Positions 2,003-15,968 of a stretch of DNA of 38,335 nucleotides are shown piece after piece. The position numbers and the translations under genes were made by a program. The notes under the pieces were generated by a model. The model was not told the origin of the DNA. It saw nothing but the letters and a program-made list of their open reading frames with translations, and did not search any database. The first letter of the stretch is position 1; each line of letters begins with the position of its first letter. The DNA is from a virus, in IMG/VR virus record IMGVR_UViG_3300036799_000279, positions 1 through 38,335 of that record; one strand, written 5' to 3'.

Positions 2003-3751
2003 TCAGGATCGTCGGCTTTTGTCCTTGTCATGGTTTCCTTCTCGAATTGGCCACACCTCAACTGCGAGTTTTGCAAGGCGGACTTGTCGGGCTGTAATTT
2101 CGTCAGCTCCCCAATTCTTCTTACCGCCAGCCTCTCGCGTAAGCAAGAAGTCGGATTTAAGAAGTTCGGGGCTTTTTACGGTAGCGTAGTCGCCAGAACC
2201 CATTTCAGCGTTCTTATTAGCTTGCATCAAAGCTAGATTGCCGAGACGAAAAATATACTCACCAAGAGACTGGTTGGTTGCTTTTACGGATTTAGGAAGA
2301 ATGTGCTCCACATTCAATCCGCCTTTCTTCGAGACGTCCCAATGCGGAAAATTCCTTTCTTGGCTATCGGTGGCCTTAACGTGCTCTTCCAGCGTTCGCA
2401 AGTAATATCTTGCGAGATATCCCTTCGATACATCAGCCGTTGAGAATGCTGCCTCAAATTGAGCATCGGTAGGAACGGACGAAACAAACATATCGGTGAT
2501 TTGAGTAAGAGTTTTGGCTGAATCCGTCATCACGGCCCGTGCCACTTCTCCGTATTTTTCTTCCAGTGATCCGCTGCCCAACTTTCCCGAGATTAGAAGT
2601 CTCACGGACCAATTCACGATTGCTTTAAAAATCTTTTCAAGCTGTTGGGGATTGCTCTGGAATTTCGCGATCGCTGCAAGCAACAGGGGACGCCCTTGGC
2701 TGACCCTGATGTAATTGAGAACTTCTATTTGGTACTTTATCGACTCTGGAAACCTGTTCCACAATTCGTCGCTTGGGTTGAGAATAGCGGCATATCGGGA
2801 TGAACTGGCGGTTAGGTCGTCAAGGAGCTCAAGGGCTTTCCTTTCTGAATTGACCTTGCGCTTGATGTTTGCATATAGCTCATCTTTGGTGGAGTGATCT
2901 TTAGCGGAAAGCCAATATTGCCTGATGAAGGTGACTAGCGCATGCTTGTCTTCGTCAACCCCTTCAATGGCGCCTTGCATCGTGAACCATTTCTGATGTG
3001 CTTCGTCTTTTCGTCCTTCGTGCGATTGAGCAAAAAGATAATTCTTCAGAAGATCCGATGCGGATAGACCCAGCCCACGATCATTCATCGTTTCAAAGAT
3101 TCTGAATGCTGTGCTATCGTCCGCAACTTGCACCCAAATAACACGCGCCCTGTCTTCAATGAAATCCTTCCAAGGCTTTAACCGAGAGTATGAATTCCCC
3201 GCCCGCGCAGTTGACGCCTCCCGTGCGACCCATTCTGCCGCAACTCTAGCCGCCGTTTCGATTCGATAGTGCGAGCGCTGATTTGGCTGCACATTTCTTT
3301 CCTTGCTGTCTGGCCGCGACAAAATACGCTTGCGAAAGAATTCATTATCGGCACCATTCAGTTGAAGGTGTGGCTCTGTATCTAAGGTGTCGGGATCTGG
3401 GGTAATCAGGTAAGTCTGCTCCAAAATCTTGGCGCGTTCGGCATCGTCATGCGTGTAAAGATAATCTCGGATTGCAGCCAAAAAAATCAGGCAAGTCGCG
3501 AGACGCTGCTGGCCATCAACAATCTTTGGCCGTTTGGCAATGTCTTGCGTTACTACGATGGAGCCTAAAAAATGCTCTGCTCCAGCTACGCCACTGGTGA
3601 TTACGTCTGAAAAATCTTGGTACAGCTCAAGGATATGATCTTCTTCCCACGCGTACTCCCGCTGATGCGTATCTACCCTTAGCCTCTTTTCGCGTAGAGC
3701 TTTTCCTATCGTTTCACGGTCAATTTGTATTTGCTCAAAATTTGCCGCCAT
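2003..3751 (-). CDS. DUF262/DUF1524 (GmrSD-like) nuclease, probable phage-defence protein
   Basis: A single-chain protein of about 582 residues. The N-terminal DUF262 domain carries DGQQR (about residues 79-83) and the family motif FETMNDRGLGLSASDLLKNYL (about 219-239). The C-terminal DUF1524 domain has the His-Me finger signature NVEHILPKS (about 480-488), followed by RLGNLAL and NKN. GmrSD and related proteins are type IV restriction enzymes: DUF262 uses nucleotide hydrolysis and DUF1524 cuts DNA, usually modified phage DNA. That role is inferred from the family. I chose the ATG at 3751 because GGGAGG lies 11 bases upstream; a GTG at 3787 would add 12 residues but its GGAGG overlaps the codon. 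It sits just beyond the tail genes, a usual place for prophage cargo. Confidence 0.85.
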   Translation of the reverse strand: MAANFEQIQIDRETIGKALREKRLRVDTHQREYAWEEDHILELYQDFSDVITSGVAGAEHFLGSIVVTQDIAKRPKIVDGQQRLATCLIFLAAIRDYLYTHDDAERAKILEQTYLITPDPDTLDTEPHLQLNGADNEFFRKRILSRPDSKERNVQPNQRSHYRIETAARVAAEWVAREASTARAGNSYSRLKPWKDFIEDRARVIWVQVADDSTAFRIFETMNDRGLGLSASDLLKNYLFAQSHEGRKDEAHQKWFTMQGAIEGVDEDKHALVTFIRQYWLSAKDHSTKDELYANIKRKVNSERKALELLDDLTASSSRYAAILNPSDELWNRFPESIKYQIEVLNYIRVSQGRPLLLAAIAKFQSNPQQLEKIFKAIVNWSVRLLISGKLGSGSLEEKYGEVARAVMTDSAKTLTQITDMFVSSVPTDAQFEAAFSTADVSKGYLARYYLRTLEEHVKATDSQERNFPHWDVSKKGGLNVEHILPKSVKATNQSLGEYIFRLGNLALMQANKNAEMGSGDYATVKSPELLKSDFLLTREAGGKKNWGADEITARQVRLAKLAVEVWPIREGNHDKDKSRRS

Positions 3752-3823
3752 CTTCCTGCGCGCCTCCCTGTCGAGGTCATAGTACACCTCCGAGGGCAGA
3801 CTGCTTTCCTCAGGGAAAGTTTT

Positions 3824-4114
3824 CTACATGGCAGGGTACTGCTGTTTTGCCATCTCTCGCACCTCTGCAGTCGTGTTCGCTATCGTTACTGCCAGCCCAA
3901 TAGCTGTAATCGTAATCGCTTGATCTTCGCTAATTGTCCCTGTATTTGGGAGAGCCTCAACACCAGCAAGTGATTCAAAGCTCGCTTGATCGTCATCGCT
4001 ATGAAAACGAACGGAGAGCAATGAAATTCCATTTGGCCCGTCGAGAGCGGCCCAATTGCGAAACATGCTGTGACAGCCGAATGTCTGCGTGTCTGTTTGA
4101 ACAAGGTAGTACAT
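3824..4114 (-). CDS. Small protein following the tail-tip gene, unknown
   Basis: A 96-residue protein that I do not recognise. It starts 12 bases after the stop of the giant tail-tip gene and has a strong AAGGAG six to seven bases before its ATG, so translation is well supported. The sequence is mixed alpha/beta, with TFGCHSMFRNW near the start and VEALPNTGTISEDQAITITAIGLAV in the C-terminal half, and has no signal peptide. By position it could be a tail-tip accessory, a chaperone, or a partner of the Hint domain; this is inference. It is the last gene of the structural cluster. Confidence 0.7.
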   Translation of the reverse strand: MYYLVQTDTQTFGCHSMFRNWAALDGPNGISLLSVRFHSDDDQASFESLAGVEALPNTGTISEDQAITITAIGLAVTIANTTAEVREMAKQQYPAM

Positions 4115-4126
4115 GCTATCTCCTTC

Positions 4127-7100
4127 TTATTTCGGCAACATGATGGCATTATGAGCCACGATGCCAGATTCCAGCGTGTAGCTGTGCTCCGTCATCGGTG
4201 ATAATGCCTCGGTTTCCGTTTCGTTCACATCGAGCACAATGAGGTCATAGACGTGGTTCTCATGGATGAGTGTCTGTATGTCGCGATAAGCAACATGTGC
4301 TCTCATCCAGCCGCCATTCTCTAAGACCCAATGCTGAATCGTGACCAACTCACCATTGCCAATCGGGTCAATCATCTTCCACTGCATGATTTCGTGACAC
4401 AGCAGACGTGCTGGCCTCCAAGTCCCTCGTGCCGTCAGCACTTCAGTTCCGTCTAGCCATTCGTCTATGCGCACAGCTCTATGCTGAGTCCTAATGAGCG
4501 TGTTTCCGCTCCAGCATCCACCCTGTCCACCGCCGCCGATTCCACCACCGCCACCTGGAACTGAACCGCTGGCTGGGGTGCTGGGATTTAAGCTCCCAGC
4601 AGACAGAGGAATTCGGGACTGTAGTGATTGTGCCTGTGAGCACAAGTAGTTTTTGTACGGCCACATGTATGCTGGGCTTCCGCTCGGCACCACGACTGGA
4701 GCCTGTTGATTCAATGTTGGTGATCCCACGTAGGTTCCTGTATTGGAAGCTATGGATTCAGCAGCGGATGTGCCCACCATTTCGTTCAGCTTCCAGTAAT
4801 ACGTCGGAGTGTCAGCAGCCACGGTGTTCGCATATCCATTTGTCACAGTGAAGCCGACATTGATACCAGTGATGAAGTGATTTGATACTTGAGTCGAGGT
4901 CAGTGGTGTGCCAGTGTAGAGTGCAACTTGACTGAGAGAACCGTTAAAGAAACTGTTAACAGTGGTCAAGAAACTCGCATTTGCGGGGCCAAATCCAATT
5001 CGATACCAAAGAGCGAAGCCCGCATTTCTCGGAGCACCAAGTGCGCTTGCAGTTCCTTTGCTCACTCCATCCACATAGATCGTGATCGTTCCACCCGTGG
5101 CAAAAGCAATGACAATGTGATGCCACGCGCCGTCACTTACCTGTGCACCAGTTGTCGTAGCGTTCACAACGGAGCCGCTACCATTCACGTACTGGAAGTT
5201 TATGTTTCCTGCTGGCCCAACTGTCCATATCATGTCTTCGTGGGTTGGAGCACCCGTACCCGTCTGCGGTGCAGCCAAGGACATAATCACTTGCTGACCG
5301 CTCGATGCCGTGGTCTTAATCCAAGCTTCAAGTGTGAACTGCGTAGGCAAAGAGTTCGCGGACGTAGTGGTGGTGAGGTACTGAGTGCTTCCATTCAGCC
5401 CGACGCTAGTCATCGTTGGGAATACAAGTTCGCTGCCCACCCACTTCATCGTGCTGGAAGTCTCGTCCCAATACGGATATGCCGTGTAGCTCTGGCTTGG
5501 CAGCAGACCCGTGACGCTCAGCGTTCCACCTGCAATGAAGCCCGAGATGGTTCCATCAGCACGGAAGATTGGTGTCTGTGTCCAAGATGGCTGCCAACTG
5601 TTGCTAGTAACGTTCCACGTCATCCCTCCCAGAACGATGCCGTTCTGACTTGTCGGAGTGCTGCCCTTTGCTAGAACGCCGCCTTTGGAGGGATCAATAT
5701 TGTTTCCTGTCAACGCCGTCTGGTTCACCTTGCCGTAAGTCGAGCCATCCGCAACTTCGGTGTCCAGATTTCTGACGCAACGAATGTAATGTTCGTCGAA
5801 CTCAACGGTGGTGTTCGCAGCATTTGCATAAATCTCGAACGTGGCATACACCGTTCCTGCTGGTGCAGTCTGAGTGTTGGTAAGGAGTGTCCAGGAGCTA
5901 GATGAAGTGGTTACGTCAGAACCACCGATGCCCGTGCCACTGGCATTTCGGAAACTTATAGATAGATCAGCGGCACCCGACCCGCTGATCCATTTCGCAC
6001 GAGCACTAGCGAAGAACACGTCGCCAGCACGACACATGACCTTTTTTATCGGTAATATGCCAGCGCCACCCGCGCTTGGACTCGTGATCTTGATACTCTG
6101 TGCGCCACTGAATTGAGTGGTCGTGTCGTAAGCCAGCGTTGCGGTATTGGCATAAGGCGTGTAGCCAGGTGGTGGAAGGATTGAGCTGCTGGCTTCGAAG
6201 TTGCCATTATCCAGCAGCGCGTCACCTGCGATATAGCTGGTGCGCAGATAAACGCCGCCATCTGCGATATTGTCGAGACTGCTCGGCCCTGCGACCTGCC
6301 AATTAGCATTCGAGGTGCTTGGAGCAGAGTTTGTGTTGCCTGTGACGCAGACCCAATAGTTGCCGCTGAAAGTGACTTCCGCGCCAGCGATGTATGCGGT
6401 CGAGCTAGACCATGCGCCCTGAAAGCCGCTGTAGCTGCCAACAACTTGCCAGTTTGAGTTCCCTGTGTTGGGAGAGGAATTCAAGCTTCCAGCGAGAGCA
6501 ACCCAATAGCTCTGACCAAAGATCACCTCATCACCCTGAAAATACGTGGTGCCTGATGTCCAAATTCCTCTGAAGTTGTATGCGACGTTGTTGACTGCAT
6601 GTGAAGCCAACAGCTTGACGAAGTTGCTTCCATCGCTGACTTCATTGTCGAGCGATGACACACGGACTAATTGGAACTTATCAATCTCCCAAGTTGTCGT
6701 GCTTGCGCTGGTGATGTACTCGCAGTCGCTAACGATGTAGAAGAACGTCGCACCAGCGGGAACAGTTCCGCTGACGGACAACGCCGTCCAACTTCCAGAA
6801 GTGATATTGGCAACGACAGCAGAAACAAAACCGCTGGCATTCTCGAACCATAATCCCGCACGTGGTTGCATTCCACCCGACACCAGCTTTCCAGCAAATG
6901 TCAGTTTGTATTGATCGCCTGGAGTGCAGGAATATTTCTGCTGATTCTGAACACCACGATACCGATCTGCTGCTACCAGCTTGAGCGATTGTGAGCCGTC
7001 ATACGGGGTAGCAGTGTCGTAGGTTATGGTCGCTGCGGTACCTTCAGGCATCCATCCTGCAGGAGCGCCGTTCTGACTCATGACGGTTGCCGCTTCAAAG

Positions 7101-10030
7101 TTGGCGTTCTGAATCGTTACACCAGTGTCCTGAGAATACGGAATGATGAGGCCGCTGGCGGCGTCAATTGCGCCAGGGTGTTGTCCAAGCACAGTGAATG
7201 CCTGAGAACCCAAGCTCGCCAATGGCGTTGCAGAATTTCCAAAAGCGTTTACTGGCTGGAATTTGAAATAAAGCGTCTGTCCTGCCCATGTCGGATCGTA
7301 CTGATATTTGAATATGCTCTGATCTAGTCGCATGAACAGCGAACCCGCTGCATGGCTACTGATTGCGGTGCCGAATAGTCCACGGCGGATATAACCGTTC
7401 ATCGTATATTGCTGTTGACCACTGAGAGCAGCCGCACTGGACGCGATGTATTCGCCGTCCACGAAGCAGAGCGTGACATTATTGTCGGCATCTGCGGTGC
7501 TTCCTGCCGCCAGTGCTCCGCAGTTCTCCGCGAGATCAATCACCAGCGAGTTCACGGTGTCGGGGTCGCTGCCTGATGCGAAGGTGCTGTCCAATACTCC
7601 CAAACGTGCTGGGGCTTGAATCGTTCCCACTTGCTCGAAGTTGGTGTTGTCTCTCGACACCCAGATGTTCGTGCTTCCGTAATTGCTGCTGGTGCCGCAG
7701 GCACCTATATAAATGGTGTTGCCTGCGTATCCCGTAAGACGAGATGTTGCCTCGAACATCACAACTTCAACGTTGCCAGGATTGGCGTAAGCATTCGACA
7801 CAACGCTGGCGGTGCTGATCGCCTTGTTATAAATCGTCGGAAGATGAGCGCCCCACGGATAATCCTCGCAAGTGATCGCCAAGCCAGTCAGTGGATCGTC
7901 CACGATCTTGGTGATGCGAGCTGGCTGATTCACCAGTCCGAGATTTGCGTTGTTGAGACCGACGGCCCATGTGCTCGTGGTGCTGAGGGAGATAATGTCC
8001 ATCGGCTCCAGATATGAGTAGGTGAATGGCAGCGTGAATTCGTAAGTGTTGCGGATGTAGACGTTGTGCTTCACACGCATATTGGCAGCAAACGTTGCGG
8101 CCGTCAGCGTGTGAATGAAATCCCAGTTCTGCGGGTCTTCCCTTCTCTCTCCCCACTTGTTGATTGAAGCCTGATCGGATTCCTGCGTGATCTCAGGTGA
8201 ATACTGATTGCTGCGGTTGTTCCACTGCACCTGGACCGCGTTCATCGCATCCTGAGGAGCACTGCGCGTGATCTTGACTGGATCTTCGCCTTCTTTGCCG
8301 AGATAACATGTATCGTCCAATGCGACTGCATAAGCGGTTGGCGCAGTCCAAGTGCAGCCACTGCCAGCGGTCGTCGTATCGCCATATGGAACGAGTTTCA
8401 GCAGACCTTCGCTGTAGAACGCGGAGCACATTCCTGCTTCCAGCCACTTGCCTAACGTGCTGGCTGCGGTGTCTTGTGAATCGAGCACAGGCGAGATGAA
8501 GAAGCCGTTAGCCGCGAACCAGTTCCATGCCGTGCTTCCCGTCAAGCTGGTGCCTGGAGTAGAAGGTGCGCCTCCCCACGTGCCGTTCGGCCCGTTATCA
8601 ATCACGCTGGTTGGGAATGCAACGAGACCAACTCCCAAGCCGCACTGCTGATTAGTGAGCACCTGCCCAATGCACTGGATTGGATTGCAGTCCTTTATTC
8701 CGCCTCCATAAATGTCAGGCGTCACGACCTCAAATGTGTTGTTAGAAATCTGACCAGATGTTCCAAGAGCCATCGGGTGATATGCGACATACGCCTTGGA
8801 CGAATAACCCAACGCTGCGCCTGGATATTTTGAAGTGAGAACACTCCATGTGCTCTGACCTTGTGTGCCCTCGAACAATTGAAAGTTGAGCGAGCTAGGT
8901 GCGCCCTGAGGCACGATGCTGAGATCTTGTGTGATCCACGTGATCCGCACCTGTGCGCTAATGTCACCAGTGGCGAACTTGTACGTTCCGCCGTGACCGC
9001 TCGGGATGCATTGATAAGTTCCTGTCACTGTCGGCGTGGCGTTCACCTTGGTGAGCCTCGTGCCGTTATTCGGTCCTGCCGTATACACCACGCCCAAGTC
9101 CGTTAGGAACTGGAGCGATCCACCGACGACGATCTGCTTGCCTGCTGGAACGATGTCGGTCTCAGTTTCCGTGATGTTCGGCAGATAGAAGCTGTACGAC
9201 AGCGTCAGGGTCTTGCCTGCATCATGCGTGGCATCGAAGTGATATGTGTTTCCTGGCTCTGTCGCCGTGGCTGCATGAGTCTGTGCAACGCCGCTGGCGT
9301 TCTGTAATGTTAATGTCGTGGCTGTAGATGAAGCGCAGACGAACGAGCCGTTGTTCGCAGCGTTGGTGAACCCAGCAATCGTGAATGTGTATCCAGCGAA
9401 AGCATTCGAACCACCTCCTGTGATCGTGCCTGTGTAGGCGGTGTTGCCGCCTGAGGCATTCGCAACAGAAGTCAGCGTGAATGTTCCGATTGAATTCGGA
9501 TTGATGCTGTAAGTTCCGCTAGTGAGAGTTGTCCCGAACGGCACCTTTATGAACGACGCCAAATACGAGCCGCTCAGAACTGTTGCAGCAGGAGCACCAA
9601 GATCGTGGAATGTGCCGCTGTAGGCGATGCTGCGGCCAACGCCAACATCAATTAGTTGGTTGTTGCTGCTCGTGACAATTGCTGGCGCATTGGTGGGCGT
9701 GTAGATGCCTGGTGCTGCGATTGTGTAGCTTTCCGTCGCATTCGGCAGACCAAGCCAGCTTTGCCCTGACCACACATCTCCGATGCCAAGGATTGGCCCA
9801 TTGCAAAGAGCAGCGATGCAATCGACAAAATAAAGATATTCAGTGCCGCCCTTGCCGCCTCCTTTGCCGCCTTGGATATTAACGGTCTGTGCTCCGAACC
9901 CATCTTCCCAGAGAAGAGACTGCTGAATACGAGCTGTTCCCATGACCCAAGGCAGTGGGTATCCATAGGCAGACTGGTTGATCTGCGCTTGATTAAGTTT
10001 CGTCGGCTGCTGCTGTTGTCCGAATCCCAT
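4127..10030 (-). CDS. Giant tail-tip / host-specificity protein with C-terminal Hint domain
   Basis: A 1967-residue central tail-fibre protein of the lambda gpJ / gene-transfer-agent tail-tip type; it should recognise the host surface at the tail tip. The N-terminal ~950 residues contain the typical start (GGKGGGKGG, then YLYFVDCIAALCNGPI, 54-80). Next come a jelly-roll-like domain (~974-1136), two tandem CBM5/12-like carbohydrate-binding repeats (1153-1199 and 1203-1247), a second jelly-roll-like domain (~1274-1430), a LamG-like domain (~1540-1720), a Gly-rich linker (1826-1838), and a Hint domain (1839-1961) with Cys1839, T1897-x-x-H1900 and H1960-N1961. The ATG overlaps the NlpC/P60 stop codon (TAATG), as expected for the tail operon. 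Domain limits are estimates by eye. Confidence 0.93.
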   Translation of the reverse strand: MGFGQQQQPTKLNQAQINQSAYGYPLPWVMGTARIQQSLLWEDGFGAQTVNIQGGKGGGKGGTEYLYFVDCIAALCNGPILGIGDVWSGQSWLGLPNATESYTIAAPGIYTPTNAPAIVTSSNNQLIDVGVGRSIAYSGTFHDLGAPAATVLSGSYLASFIKVPFGTTLTSGTYSINPNSIGTFTLTSVANASGGNTAYTGTITGGGSNAFAGYTFTIAGFTNAANNGSFVCASSTATTLTLQNASGVAQTHAATATEPGNTYHFDATHDAGKTLTLSYSFYLPNITETETDIVPAGKQIVVGGSLQFLTDLGVVYTAGPNNGTRLTKVNATPTVTGTYQCIPSGHGGTYKFATGDISAQVRITWITQDLSIVPQGAPSSLNFQLFEGTQGQSTWSVLTSKYPGAALGYSSKAYVAYHPMALGTSGQISNNTFEVVTPDIYGGGIKDCNPIQCIGQVLTNQQCGLGVGLVAFPTSVIDNGPNGTWGGAPSTPGTSLTGSTAWNWFAANGFFISPVLDSQDTAASTLGKWLEAGMCSAFYSEGLLKLVPYGDTTTAGSGCTWTAPTAYAVALDDTCYLGKEGEDPVKITRSAPQDAMNAVQVQWNNRSNQYSPEITQESDQASINKWGERREDPQNWDFIHTLTAATFAANMRVKHNVYIRNTYEFTLPFTYSYLEPMDIISLSTTSTWAVGLNNANLGLVNQPARITKIVDDPLTGLAITCEDYPWGAHLPTIYNKAISTASVVSNAYANPGNVEVVMFEATSRLTGYAGNTIYIGACGTSSNYGSTNIWVSRDNTNFEQVGTIQAPARLGVLDSTFASGSDPDTVNSLVIDLAENCGALAAGSTADADNNVTLCFVDGEYIASSAAALSGQQQYTMNGYIRRGLFGTAISSHAAGSLFMRLDQSIFKYQYDPTWAGQTLYFKFQPVNAFGNSATPLASLGSQAFTVLGQHPGAIDAASGLIIPYSQDTGVTIQNANFEAATVMSQNGAPAGWMPEGTAATITYDTATPYDGSQSLKLVAADRYRGVQNQQKYSCTPGDQYKLTFAGKLVSGGMQPRAGLWFENASGFVSAVVANITSGSWTALSVSGTVPAGATFFYIVSDCEYITSASTTTWEIDKFQLVRVSSLDNEVSDGSNFVKLLASHAVNNVAYNFRGIWTSGTTYFQGDEVIFGQSYWVALAGSLNSSPNTGNSNWQVVGSYSGFQGAWSSSTAYIAGAEVTFSGNYWVCVTGNTNSAPSTSNANWQVAGPSSLDNIADGGVYLRTSYIAGDALLDNGNFEASSSILPPPGYTPYANTATLAYDTTTQFSGAQSIKITSPSAGGAGILPIKKVMCRAGDVFFASARAKWISGSGAADLSISFRNASGTGIGGSDVTTSSSSWTLLTNTQTAPAGTVYATFEIYANAANTTVEFDEHYIRCVRNLDTEVADGSTYGKVNQTALTGNNIDPSKGGVLAKGSTPTSQNGIVLGGMTWNVTSNSWQPSWTQTPIFRADGTISGFIAGGTLSVTGLLPSQSYTAYPYWDETSSTMKWVGSELVFPTMTSVGLNGSTQYLTTTTSANSLPTQFTLEAWIKTTASSGQQVIMSLAAPQTGTGAPTHEDMIWTVGPAGNINFQYVNGSGSVVNATTTGAQVSDGAWHHIVIAFATGGTITIYVDGVSKGTASALGAPRNAGFALWYRIGFGPANASFLTTVNSFFNGSLSQVALYTGTPLTSTQVSNHFITGINVGFTVTNGYANTVAADTPTYYWKLNEMVGTSAAESIASNTGTYVGSPTLNQQAPVVVPSGSPAYMWPYKNYLCSQAQSLQSRIPLSAGSLNPSTPASGSVPGGGGGIGGGGQGGCWSGNTLIRTQHRAVRIDEWLDGTEVLTARGTWRPARLLCHEIMQWKMIDPIGNGELVTIQHWVLENGGWMRAHVAYRDIQTLIHENHVYDLIVLDVNETETEALSPMTEHSYTLESGIVAHNAIMLPK
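4130..4516 (-). other. Hint (intein-like/BIL) domain coding segment inside the tail-tip gene
   Basis: This segment encodes the last 129 residues of the tail-tip protein. It begins with Cys1839 (CWSGNTLI) after a Gly-rich linker, carries block-B TIQH about 58 residues later, and ends HSYTLESGIVAHN followed by AIMLPK and the stop. Cys at position 1, TxxH, and a C-terminal His-Asn about 123 residues from the Cys are the hallmarks of self-processing Hint domains. The residue after Asn is Ala, not Cys/Ser/Thr, which resembles bacterial intein-like domains rather than classical inteins. Splicing into a downstream extein is impossible because only six residues follow, so cleavage or cross-linking is likelier. 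Confidence 0.8.
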
Positions 10031-10506
10031 TACTTCTCTTCCTTGCAGTGCTCATCAAGCGGCGTGAAAAACTTGCGCTGGCATTTCTGAAATCGTGGTT
10101 CCTTCGTCCCGTGTCCGCCGATTACTCCATGACGCCCGATGGCGTGAATGATGTAGTCAGGCCAACTGACAATGATTCCCGCATGTGCGAATGCGTGATC
10201 GAGCTTGTACACAACCGTGTCTCCTGGCTTCGCTTCCAACTCAGAAATCTCTCTCATGTAACGCATAACGGTGTTGATATATTCAGGGTCTTCTCTGTGC
10301 TGACAGACTTGCAGAGAATAATCCGTAGGTAGCGGCACACCATCTCCTGGACGATGCCCTGCTTCTAAATAAACCGCTTTGAGTAACTGACCGCAATCCA
10401 CGCCGCCCTTCGAGCCTTTGATCGCGGACCAACCCCGATACGGCGTCCCAAGCCAACTCTTCGCCACTTCCACAATGTTGTTTCTCTGTACGTCTGATAA
10501 AGGCAT
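10030..10506 (-). CDS. NlpC/P60 cell-wall peptidase, tail-associated
   Basis: A 158-residue NlpC/P60 cysteine peptidase of the lambda gpK / gene-transfer-agent gp14 type. These proteins sit at the tail tip and cut peptidoglycan stem peptides during DNA entry. The catalytic Cys is in GGVDCGQL (Cys38), and the His candidates are His108 (FAHAGIIV) and His121 (YIIHA), in the expected order. It lies between the hub gene and the tail-tip gene, which is the family's usual position. It starts three bases after the hub stop, and its own stop overlaps the next ATG. It is unlikely to be the host-lysis enzyme. Confidence 0.93.
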   Translation of the reverse strand: MPLSDVQRNNIVEVAKSWLGTPYRGWSAIKGSKGGVDCGQLLKAVYLEAGHRPGDGVPLPTDYSLQVCQHREDPEYINTVMRYMREISELEAKPGDTVVYKLDHAFAHAGIIVSWPDYIIHAIGRHGVIGGHGTKEPRFQKCQRKFFTPLDEHCKEEK

Positions 10507-13045: not shown

Positions 13046-15112
13046 TTACTTGTTCATCCTTCTCATCACTGAAGTCATGTGGCGTTTGAATGTATCGCCG
13101 TGCTTTGTCAGCATTCGATCTACGCCCTCGGCATCCATCGCGTGAATAGTTGGCGCAAACGATGCGTGAACATGCGTGTCACCGTACGAATTGCCGTTAC
13201 GGCCTTCATTGGCTTCTACTCTGTCCGTCAGTGCCTTGGTGACAACTGTTTCACCGCCGTGACCGATGATTGGGACCGCACCCTGGCCTGGGATTTTTCC
13301 GCCGATCTCAAAGCTCATGGCCGTGGCCATCATGGTTGCTCCGAATGCTGGCGCACCCGTATCAATCGGCCAGGGAGCAAGAGAGAACGAAGCCACAGCA
13401 TTTGCACCTGCGACTTGCGCCGCCAACGTTTTCAGGATCGCAGCCGTAGCTGTTGCTTGAGCGATGGTCATGGCATTGGTGCTCGCATCCACCGCTTTCA
13501 TAATTGTGTGAGTAATCACCCACTGCATTCCCCACTTGATAATGGAGCTGAGCATAGATTCGAGCATCTGGCTCGCGACTTGGCGCACAGCTTGTCCTAA
13601 GCTTCGACTCTCCACGATGCTTCGGGCCATTCCCTGACTGAACCCGTTTACGAATTGGGTGACGCTGCTCTGCAACGTCATGCGGATGGTCGTGCTCAAA
13701 TCCAAAGTCTCGGACTTCATACGAGCGAAGTAGGTGCCCCACGAGGAGTTCAACTTCGCCATCGCAGTGTCGGTCTTGCTGATCTCGCTGTTGAACTTGA
13801 TCTGCTCCTGCGTCTGTTGCTGGATTAGGTGGAGCTTTTTATCAGGATCTTGGGTCTGATCTATTTCATTCAGCAAAGCCCTCATCTTGGCTTCGTGTTC
13901 CTGCTCATAGACCTTCTTGACCTGTTCGTAGTAGTTTTTTTCAGAAATCAGACCGAGCGCATGATTCTGTTCCAGCGCATCCTGCTGCATACCGAGATAC
14001 TCTCGGTACTTGCTGATGATCTGACCCTGGTTGAGTAGATTGCCCTGTTCACCGAGCTTGGCGACAGCTTCAGTGGCTTTGACTTGAGCGGCAGCGATCT
14101 CATCCGATGCCTTCTGTGCATCATCGTGAGCTTTAGCAACGCGCTGGCTAAGACTTGCGAAAGCTTTATTCCACGCAGACTCGGTCTTCTGAGCATCTGC
14201 AGTAATTTCGTTGGTCGCCTTACCTGAAGAAATGGCCACCCGCTCACGGGCTTCGATTGTTTGCTCCCGCAATGCGGTAGTAACGTCCTGCCACGCCTTC
14301 TCTTGATCCGTAAGGTGCTGAGCAAGAAAGTTATCCTGTGGCGAGTCCTTAATCACACCCGCAGCTTGACGCTGCTTTTCGCGCAGCGTGTCAAAGTGAC
14401 CCTGGGCCTCCTGCATAGCGGCATTCAGCGCAACTACAGCCTGCTTAGGATCGTTCCCATGCTCACGAATGTCCTCAAGTTTTTCTCGAACAGCTAACAG
14501 AGCCTTCTGCGCTGGTTCGGTGTCTACCGAACCGAACAGCTTCATGAACCAATTGCTGTCCATCTTCTGAAGAAGTTTGTCAGCTTCAGTTTCCATTTTC
14601 TTGAACTCGCCAATGATGGAGTTCAAGGTTTGCTCGTTTAGCAATTTGATTTTGCCTTGCAATGCAGCAACCGAGTGGTTGCCGAGTTCATCGGCTTTGA
14701 TTTGGACCTGGAGCAACTCTTCGCCCAGAGTTGCCATTGTGTCGTGGAACGTGCTGTCAACAGACTTCCACCCATCGGCGATTTCCTTGGCTGCTTTCTT
14801 GTGTTCCTCTACGAACTTGCTGATGAAGCCGATTGCGAACACTGCGCCCATGACTGGAAGCAACAACTCGAATGCCGCGCCAATGCCTGGAATAGTTGCA
14901 ATGAGTGAATTGATATGACGAGGCAGACGAATACCGAGGGACTCTTCCAAGACCATCATGGAGCCACGGGCTTCCATCATGTTGAAAGAGCCATCAAATT
15001 CTTTGGACTTACCTTTCAGTCCGTCAAGGTCAGCCTTGACCTTGCCCATGTCCTCGCGGAATTGAGCGGTCTCAGCCTGCAACCGAATGATGAGTGCGCC
15101 TATTTCGGACAT
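13046..15112 (-). CDS. Tape measure protein
   Basis: About 688 residues. It sets tail length and is ejected during infection. Near residues 70-110 are hydrophobic segments (HINSLIATIPGIGAAFELLL, then VMGAVFAIGFI). The middle, from about 120 to 470, is long helical coiled coil. The C-terminal part has the typical SSVTQFVNGFSQGMARSIVES, an Ala-rich hydrophobic stretch, and the GGxIPGxG and HGGE elements of lambda-type tape measures. I chose the ATG at 15112 because AAGGAA lies six bases upstream; an upstream start at 15145 would add 11 residues. It overlaps the end of the chaperone frame by 13 bases. At roughly 1.5 angstroms per residue, the tail would be about 100 nm, which is a rough estimate. 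Confidence 0.93.
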   Translation of the reverse strand: MSEIGALIIRLQAETAQFREDMGKVKADLDGLKGKSKEFDGSFNMMEARGSMMVLEESLGIRLPRHINSLIATIPGIGAAFELLLPVMGAVFAIGFISKFVEEHKKAAKEIADGWKSVDSTFHDTMATLGEELLQVQIKADELGNHSVAALQGKIKLLNEQTLNSIIGEFKKMETEADKLLQKMDSNWFMKLFGSVDTEPAQKALLAVREKLEDIREHGNDPKQAVVALNAAMQEAQGHFDTLREKQRQAAGVIKDSPQDNFLAQHLTDQEKAWQDVTTALREQTIEARERVAISSGKATNEITADAQKTESAWNKAFASLSQRVAKAHDDAQKASDEIAAAQVKATEAVAKLGEQGNLLNQGQIISKYREYLGMQQDALEQNHALGLISEKNYYEQVKKVYEQEHEAKMRALLNEIDQTQDPDKKLHLIQQQTQEQIKFNSEISKTDTAMAKLNSSWGTYFARMKSETLDLSTTIRMTLQSSVTQFVNGFSQGMARSIVESRSLGQAVRQVASQMLESMLSSIIKWGMQWVITHTIMKAVDASTNAMTIAQATATAAILKTLAAQVAGANAVASFSLAPWPIDTGAPAFGATMMATAMSFEIGGKIPGQGAVPIIGHGGETVVTKALTDRVEANEGRNGNSYGDTHVHASFAPTIHAMDAEGVDRMLTKHGDTFKRHMTSVMRRMNK

Positions 15113-15968
15113 TCGTGTTCCTTTGGTTTCAGCGACGGCCAGCATTCATTGACCAGTTGCTCGGCGTCGTCACGGCCCGACGCTCGAACATCGCTGATGA
15201 CCTTCAGTCTGATTTCCAGCAACTTCTCGCGCGGTGTGCTCATCGGCTGATTGCCGAGAGCTTTCTTGATGAACCGCTTCGCGTTCTGCAACTCTTCGTG
15301 CTTGCGGCTGCTCTCTTCGTCTCTGACGAAGTCGTAAGGCGTGAGCATTGGATCTTCTGCCTTGCCACGGTTGACGTTGTACACAGCTGCTGCGGTCATC
15401 GCATGTGCGAACCGCTCGTATCTGATCCTGACGTTGCGACGTTTACAGAGGGCTTGAAACATGCCAGGTGTCAGCTCTTCAAACTCATCCCAGCTCAAGC
15501 CGAGGTCATATCGAGCGATTGACCACAGCTCTAACCATGTTTCGGGGCGGACGGACTCTAGGAACTCGTCGTCGCCGTCTGGACGTTTGGGTCGGCAGTT
15601 GCACCCGTGACCTTTTCTTTCTCAAACTTTTCCCATGCTTCTTTCACGCCTGGGAATAGCAGGTCGAAGATTTCATCAGACAAGAGCCTCTGCGCCTCTG
15701 GGTTCAATACATCCAGCACCTGTTCAAGCGTGATCTCTGGGTTGTAGCGATTGAGAAGACCCCACACGATGGTTGGGAAATGTTTGCCCGAGGAGAGGTC
15801 TTTCCAGTCCTCGATTTTCTTTAGGTCCTTGCCGATGGCCTCTTCGATCTTTGCGATGGCTCTGTAATCGGGGCACAGCTTCCACACTTGTGGTGCGGAG
15901 CCGTCTTCTTTGTCTAAGAGAAGGGAGAAGTGCGGCGTGGTACGTGTCTTGATTTGCTTTTCAGCCAT
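15100..15968 (-). CDS. Tail assembly chaperone fusion, gpGT-like, made by -1 frameshift
   Basis: The minus strand reads zero frame from 15968 to the AAC codon at 15587-15585, slips back one base on C CCA AAC, and continues from 15585 to the stop at 15100. This gives about 289 residues: 128 shared with the gpG-like protein plus 161 more. The second frame is open well upstream of any start codon and keeps protein-like sequence through the overlap (RPETWLELWSIARYDLG), then LSWDEFEELTPGMFQALCKRR, as in gpT-type domains. The first start-like codon in that frame is a TTG at 15498, which would drop these residues, so independent initiation is less likely. It sits between the gpG-like frame and the tape measure, as in lambda. 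Confidence 0.85.
15558..15968 (-). CDS. Tail assembly chaperone, gpG-like (zero-frame product)
   Basis: A 136-residue protein with the tail-chaperone pattern: a short beta N-terminus, then YRAIAKIEEAIGKDL, IVWGLLNRYNPEITLEQVLDVL and a C-terminal charged helix. In lambda, gpG binds the tape measure and a frameshifted gpGT recruits tube subunits. I chose the ATG at 15968, with AGGTG seven bases upstream; a GTG at 15977 would add three residues. It follows the tail tube gene after a strong hairpin (16000-16019). The last ten codons overlap the second chaperone frame and include the slippery heptamer at 15585-15591. Confidence 0.88.
   Translation of the reverse strand: MAEKQIKTRTTPHFSLLLDKEDGSAPQVWKLCPDYRAIAKIEEAIGKDLKKIEDWKDLSSGKHFPTIVWGLLNRYNPEITLEQVLDVLNPEAQRLLSDEIFDLLFPGVKEAWEKFEKEKVTGATADPNVQTATTSS
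15585..15591 (-). promoter_or_regulatory. Slippery heptamer C CCA AAC, programmed -1 frameshift site
   Basis: The minus-strand sequence CCCAAAC is split C CCA AAC in the zero frame, a full match to the X XXY YYZ rule. Both tRNAs can re-pair after a one-base slip (CCA to CCC, AAC to AAA). It lies 25 bases before the zero-frame stop. A 5-bp stem, GACGG with CCGTC, is possible just downstream and could stimulate slipping. The -1 frame has a TGA further upstream (within AAGTTTGAG), so the slip must occur in this short window. Confidence 0.85.

Follow-up and report, generated by a model that had tools for sequence, protein, structure and literature searches.

A predicted Hint domain at the C-terminus of a phage tail-tip protein and its relatives in viral contigs

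Results

The tail-tip gene and its neighborhood

The window, by which we mean the whole 38,335-nucleotide stretch of viral DNA analyzed, contains a phage tail module. All coordinates given for the window refer to its minus strand. A tape measure gene (13046..15145) lies upstream, an NlpC/P60 tail peptidase gene (10030..10506) starts the tail-tip module, and directly after it comes the gene for a megatron-like tail-tip/host-specificity protein of 1967 residues (4127..10030). The core of this protein includes a Phage-tail_3 domain (aa 517-685) and matches phrog_1101 (E 4e-55), PF13550 (E 6.5e-19) and, partially, the GTA megatron model; a PF13550/phrog_1101 core within a tail module is what marks a tail-tip (megatron/J-like) protein. 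Carbohydrate-binding-like and lectin domains follow the core, and domain searches found CBM_4_9-like and CBM_5_12-like domains as well as a concanavalin A-like Laminin_G_3 domain (aa 1546-1715; 4886..5395; E 9.8e-21). With these core matches, the NlpC/P60 and tape measure context, and the lectin and CBM-like domains, the predicted product of 4127-10030 is soundly labeled a tail-tip protein.

The segment at 6581-7150 (aa 961-1150, CBM_4_9-like) is only 27% identical to its counterpart in the sibling phage L001, with flanking segments at about 95-97%, and is a swapped module whose role is probably receptor binding. In L041 (12883-12887) and L035 (12688-13118), the tail tip is divided into at least two adjoining genes, the last of which ends in the Hint domain described below.

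A Hint domain at the extreme C-terminus

The last 129 codons before the stop (aa 1839-1967; 4130..4516) encode a Hint domain of the bacterial intein-like (BIL) type, identified from its motifs, its predicted fold, PDB matches and the Pfam Hint_2 and Vint families. Translation of the gene confirmed every residue named in the initial annotation: Cys1839 (4514..4516), the first Hint residue and predicted nucleophile of the N-S acyl shift; block B T1897-I-Q-H1900 (4331..4342); block G H1960-N1961 (4148..4153), the predicted site of Asn cyclization; a Gly-rich linker before the cysteine; and AIMLPK (4130..4147) followed by the stop. The linker, SGSVPGGGGGIGGGGQGG (4517..4570), comprises the 18 residues preceding C1839 and is the predicted mature end after self-removal. 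Block F (E-H-S-Y-T-L) was also found, so the domain is complete rather than a matter of a few matching residues.

Searches with the single sequence against Pfam, NCBIfam, PHROGs and the PDB gave no Hint match above cut-off. Pfam Hint_2 matched the whole protein at E 0.17 and the domain alone at E 0.003. In the Hint HMM search proposed at the outset, the window domain scored 18.4 bits against the Hint_2 cut-off of 28.4, and the relative in L097 scored 31.8. The best E-value of any member was 1.7e-6 for Hint_2 and 4.6e-6 for Vint, which matched six of the seven members tested, and a profile search by sequence against solved structures placed Vint first (E 1.2e-4).

The fold was predicted with AF2 from an alignment of 13 sequences of phage relatives, giving a pLDDT of 94.5 and a pTM of 0.87; an earlier model from two sequences was poor (pLDDT 50). 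Foldseek returned 26 PDB matches at E<=0.001, all of them Hint, BIL, Vint or intein structures. The best E-value belonged to Tetrahymena BUBL1 BIL2 (PDB 6y75/6tmm), with Vint and (mini-)inteins also among the best matches. Among the listed PDB matches, Vint (PDB 8r2c) had the lowest rmsd (2.2 A) and the highest query-normalized TM-score (0.70), and the type A BIL domain of C. thermocellum (PDB 2lwy, E 1.1e-3) fell just below the E<=0.001 group. At the level of prediction, the Hint (horseshoe beta) fold of aa 1839-1967 is settled, and the comparison with BIL structures agrees with the original suggestion that a genuine Hint/BIL-like domain ends this receptor-binding protein.

Relatives, conservation and selection

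Relatives were collected by gathering tail tips from viral contigs first and then reading their C-termini; a direct scan of viral sequences with the window domain had found one. About 40 viral contigs, mostly from soil or peat metagenomes, probably, to go by their sample identifiers, encode a tail protein that ends in a Hint domain, and these domains form three diverged subfamilies. Subfamily I comprises the window, L001, L009, L024, L026, L035, L041, L092, L093 and L095-L097; subfamily II, L101-L116 (6001-6375); and subfamily III, L055, L059, L060, L118, L124-L126, L147, L171, L172 and L180. In profile comparisons subfamily II was strongly linked to subfamily I (95%, E 2e-8), and the link between I and III was moderate (63%, E 7e-5). 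A 986-residue protein on L096, a 463-kb viral contig, ends in two complete tandem Hint domains (7653-8372) with KAAV between them.

No relatives were found in two scans of contigs from GTDB species genomes. In the INPHARED phage collection, neither the window domain nor the subfamily II and III queries had a homologue; the only matches were weak ones to Hint domains in other phage proteins, such as the head protein of a Gordonia phage. Other phage Hint proteins, one labeled fibronectin type III, were among the matches in viral structure predictions.

The nearest relative is 62% identical in the Hint domain, compared with 83% over the whole protein, and keeps all motif residues, which puts the motif match beyond chance. 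All 13 aligned domains have C1 (one row being clipped by one residue); T59, H62, W70, L115 and N123 do not vary among them, and 11 have the block G His. In subfamily I, Cys1, TxxH and Asn are fixed while the remainder diverges to about 25-40% identity. Between the two closest Hint domains dN/dS is about 0.21, a sign that the domain is maintained under purifying selection.

Conservation of this kind bears on the idea that the domain is a structural end-cap or folding domain that has kept the Hint fold and lost the chemistry. C-terminal folding domains are common on tail fibers, L071 looks degenerate, and in subfamily II, where Cys1 and HN are invariant, the block B TxxH is replaced by an invariant SPCE. 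The fixed Cys1, TxxH and Asn of subfamily I, retained despite divergence, argue against an inert cap, as does the fact that the Asn is never terminal, and we consider this explanation unlikely. The SPCE of subfamily II, together with tails ending in Ser or Cys, possibly reflects a different catalytic arrangement. Since two subfamily I members also have TN or SN in place of HN, some members may react slowly, by a different chemistry or not at all.

A short peptide follows the asparagine

In 34 distinct tails, 3-8 residues follow the Asn, which is never the last residue. The residue after the Asn is C, S or T in just one of the 34 and is Ala1962 in the window, in line with the earlier remark that this position is non-nucleophilic. 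Ordinary splicing through a +1 nucleophile is therefore not expected, and the domain is not a standard intein.

The shared fold and the frequency of inteins in phages might suggest a selfish intein that has degenerated, or one that was inserted and then lost its C-extein to truncation. This origin is disfavored and very improbable. Class 1 inteins lie within conserved host proteins and have a +1 nucleophile and a substantial C-extein, and here the stop comes six residues after the Asn; a homing endonuclease is absent; and the insertion follows a non-conserved Gly linker instead of lying at an active site. The stop recurs 3-8 residues past the Asn in many lineages, and in the window the Shine-Dalgarno sequence AAGAAGGAG for the downstream gene lies right against the tail gene's stop codon. 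The same recurrence and abutting Shine-Dalgarno led us to reject a truncation or frameshift artefact.

Also disfavored, and hardly credible, is a polymorphic-toxin origin, in which the domain would be the pretoxin-Hint left behind when a phage-borne toxin lost its toxin domain. In many polymorphic toxins HINT lies just before the C-terminal toxin, some of them on tail-fiber stalks (PMC3482391). The window gave no match to PT-HINT (PF07591), however, and a toxin domain follows the Hint in none of about 40 contigs; the six residues of the window, and 3-8 elsewhere, occupy that place.

At least one K, S, T or C occurs within the peptide in all 34 tails. The last residue is one of these four in 27 of the 34, compared with 19.9% of 860 control ORF ends, a count over related sequences in which the use of C-terminal residues is biased anyway. 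The pattern was first noticed post hoc, and the prediction was then fixed ahead of the final scan, in which five of six new tails ended in K, S, T or C (p 0.0016), or three of four when close relatives of a known tail were set aside (p 0.027). At a single site Ser alternates with Cys (L117 has GNILPRS, L118 GNILPRC), and Cys ends seven subfamily II or III tails, against a background of 1.4%. Terminal Lys, Ser or Thr may have reasons other than acyl acceptance. Judged from these tails, the nucleophile most consistently present is the protein's own last residue.

The Hint domain as a module within a putatively exchanged block

Hint-less sister tails end at a similar Gly-rich stretch plus about four residues (GGGGRQVY in L017, GGGGGHNIL in L051, GGGGRNIY in L139, GGGGRQFF in L162), so the Hint is an add-on placed behind a natural tail end. 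By its presence and absence among the tails, the Hint behaves like a C-terminal module that can be removed. The residue preceding Cys1 is Gly in some relatives and S, K, T or A in others.

Compared with L001, the window has 93% identical DNA over the tail body and 96% outside the tail module, but only 77% over the stretch that runs from the small downstream gene across the Hint up to and including the lectin. Estimates of dS are 0.22-0.5 over the first 960 residues and 1.38 in the Hint. The block from small gene to lectin looks to have been exchanged as a unit. The small gene (3824..4114) lies directly downstream of the tail gene, within the same diverged DNA as the Hint, and encodes 96 residues. 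Small genes of 75-140 aa directly follow most Hint tails, for example in the window, L041, L024, L026, L093, L012, L055 and L060, and L051, with a Hint-less, Gly-ended tail, has one as well. Two groups of these small genes are related by profile (P 92%), the others weakly, and L009 and L095 have a different neighbor. Given that only some families are linked and that one stands beside a Hint-less tail, we rejected the small gene as an obligatory partner.

A GmrSD-like/HEC-06 candidate defense gene (2003-3787; PADLOC HEC-06 E 2e-157; Pfam GmrSD_N and GmrSD_C) and a 155-aa ORF (1408-1875) lie between the small gene and a 271-aa gene. L001 has neither, and its DNA is 96% identical beside that site. 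The pair looks like phage-borne defense cargo.

The small gene also bears on Hedgehog- or BUBL-like conjugation in trans, in which an amine or hydroxyl on another molecule would take over the Gly-terminated tail protein from the Cys1 thioester, attaching the tip covalently to another virion protein, such as the 96-aa neighbor, or to the host surface. The best PDB match, BUBL1 BIL2, reportedly joins a ubiquitin-like domain to a lysine through an isopeptide bond (PMC8616854), and the small gene follows most Hint tails and shares one diverged block with the Hint in the window. However, Hedgehog-type chemistry goes no further than the first acyl shift and has no need of the conserved Asn. That the Asn is conserved yet never terminal points to peptide-bond chemistry there, against a pure Hedgehog-type reaction, and an invariant Asn with just 3-8 residues after the Hint is not what a Hedgehog Hog domain has. 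The protein is also without a sterol-recognition or acceptor-binding domain, and the downstream proteins are only partly one family, with the exceptions of L051, L009 and L095 already described. Conjugation in trans is, in our estimate, distinctly unlikely.

Discussion

The BIL-type Hint domain at the extreme C-terminus of this tail-tip protein is probably functional and removes itself after synthesis. Cys1839, aided by T1897-x-x-H1900, would convert the Gly1838-Cys1839 peptide bond to a thioester, and Asn1961, aided by His1960, would cyclize, severing the six-residue tail. Water, a small thiol or the terminal nucleophile of the protein itself could resolve the thioester. The mature virion protein would then end in a flexible Gly-rich linker, perhaps with the short peptide still on. 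Self-cleaving chaperone domains at the C-termini of tail fibers offer an analogy: the Hint may serve as a provisional end-cap, released when folding and assembly of the tip are complete. The sequences establish the domain, its predicted fold, its place at the terminus, the conserved motifs and its modular distribution, and from there we infer catalysis, timing and purpose. In favor of self-removal are the motifs of 13 diverged domains, the fold and Pfam matches, purifying selection, the shared terminal architecture, the 3-8 residues that always follow the Asn, the Gly-rich ends of Hint-less sisters and the tandem Hint of L096. BIL domains that lack a +1 nucleophile yield mainly cleaved products (PMC7664689), which also favors self-removal. 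Against it, Gly does not precede Cys1 in every relative, and the sequence gives no reason for a tail tip to need a removable Hint.

The initial annotation had proposed that the phage may sever the tip of its own receptor-binding protein, which is only partly right. Since the Hint is the last domain, cleavage at Cys1839 or Asn1961 would take away the Hint, the six residues or both and nothing more, and the lectin and carbohydrate-binding domains would stay attached. The other proposal of that annotation, a link to another molecule through the Cys1 thioester, is the conjugation in trans weighed above.

One sub-case of self-processing gives the last residue a role. The Cys1 thioester of the Gly linker would pass to whichever of Lys, Ser, Thr and Cys ends the tail of 3-8 residues (in the window Lys1967, the candidate acyl acceptor), and Asn cyclization would then free the Hint, which amounts to splicing onto a micro-extein whose nucleophile is displaced. 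We hold this transfer to be rather doubtful. If it is true, a short peptide would be attached to the Gly-rich end through an ester, thioester or isopeptide bond, possibly making a reactive end for attachment.

Type A BIL domains were described in Amitai 2003 and Dassa 2004, as cited in PMC7765530 and PMC7664689. The window domain shares with them Cys1, TxxH, the terminal HN, a length of about 130 aa and a +1 position that need not be Cys, Ser or Thr; for both, cleavage rather than splicing would be expected. Type A BIL domains sit in variable regions of bacterial proteins, whereas the window Hint is the last domain of a phage tail tip, and it and its relatives have just 3-8 residues after the Hint, often ending in K, S, T or C. 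BUBL1 BIL2 is eukaryotic and flanked by ubiquitin-like domains, and its resemblance to the window domain lies in the fold. Vint (Pfam PF14623) is known from eukaryotic VWA proteins, in contrast to a domain on a phage tail. Peptidase_S74, the intramolecular chaperone of tail fibers and endosialidases, is a self-removing C-terminal domain of phage receptor-binding proteins (PMC7824862), but it is unrelated, uses Ser/Lys chemistry and gave no match in the window tail tip.

GTA megatron and tail-tip host-specificity proteins (phrog_1101, NF048004, PF13550) share with the window protein its core and the gene order of tape measure, NlpC/P60 and tip. Tail-tip relatives in named phages (Acinetobacter, Brevundimonas, Pseudomonas KT1) are without a Hint and end in other sequence. 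In the literature, with subscription journals thinly covered, phage Hint domains and inteins are reported in terminase, RNR, polymerase and helicase, and we found no report of a Hint ending a phage tail tip. Hint and BIL domains are already known; what appears new, with no earlier report found, is a Hint that terminates phage tail tips and is without an INPHARED homologue.

If active, the domain would bring a self-excising step of protein chemistry into the maturation of a receptor-binding tip of a phage, by a mechanism other than the known one of S74 chaperones. The recurring terminal nucleophile offers a testable idea of how a Hint without a +1 nucleophile could still transfer an acyl group. 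Small natural Hints at Gly-rich junctions, if active, would also be practical for protein ligation.
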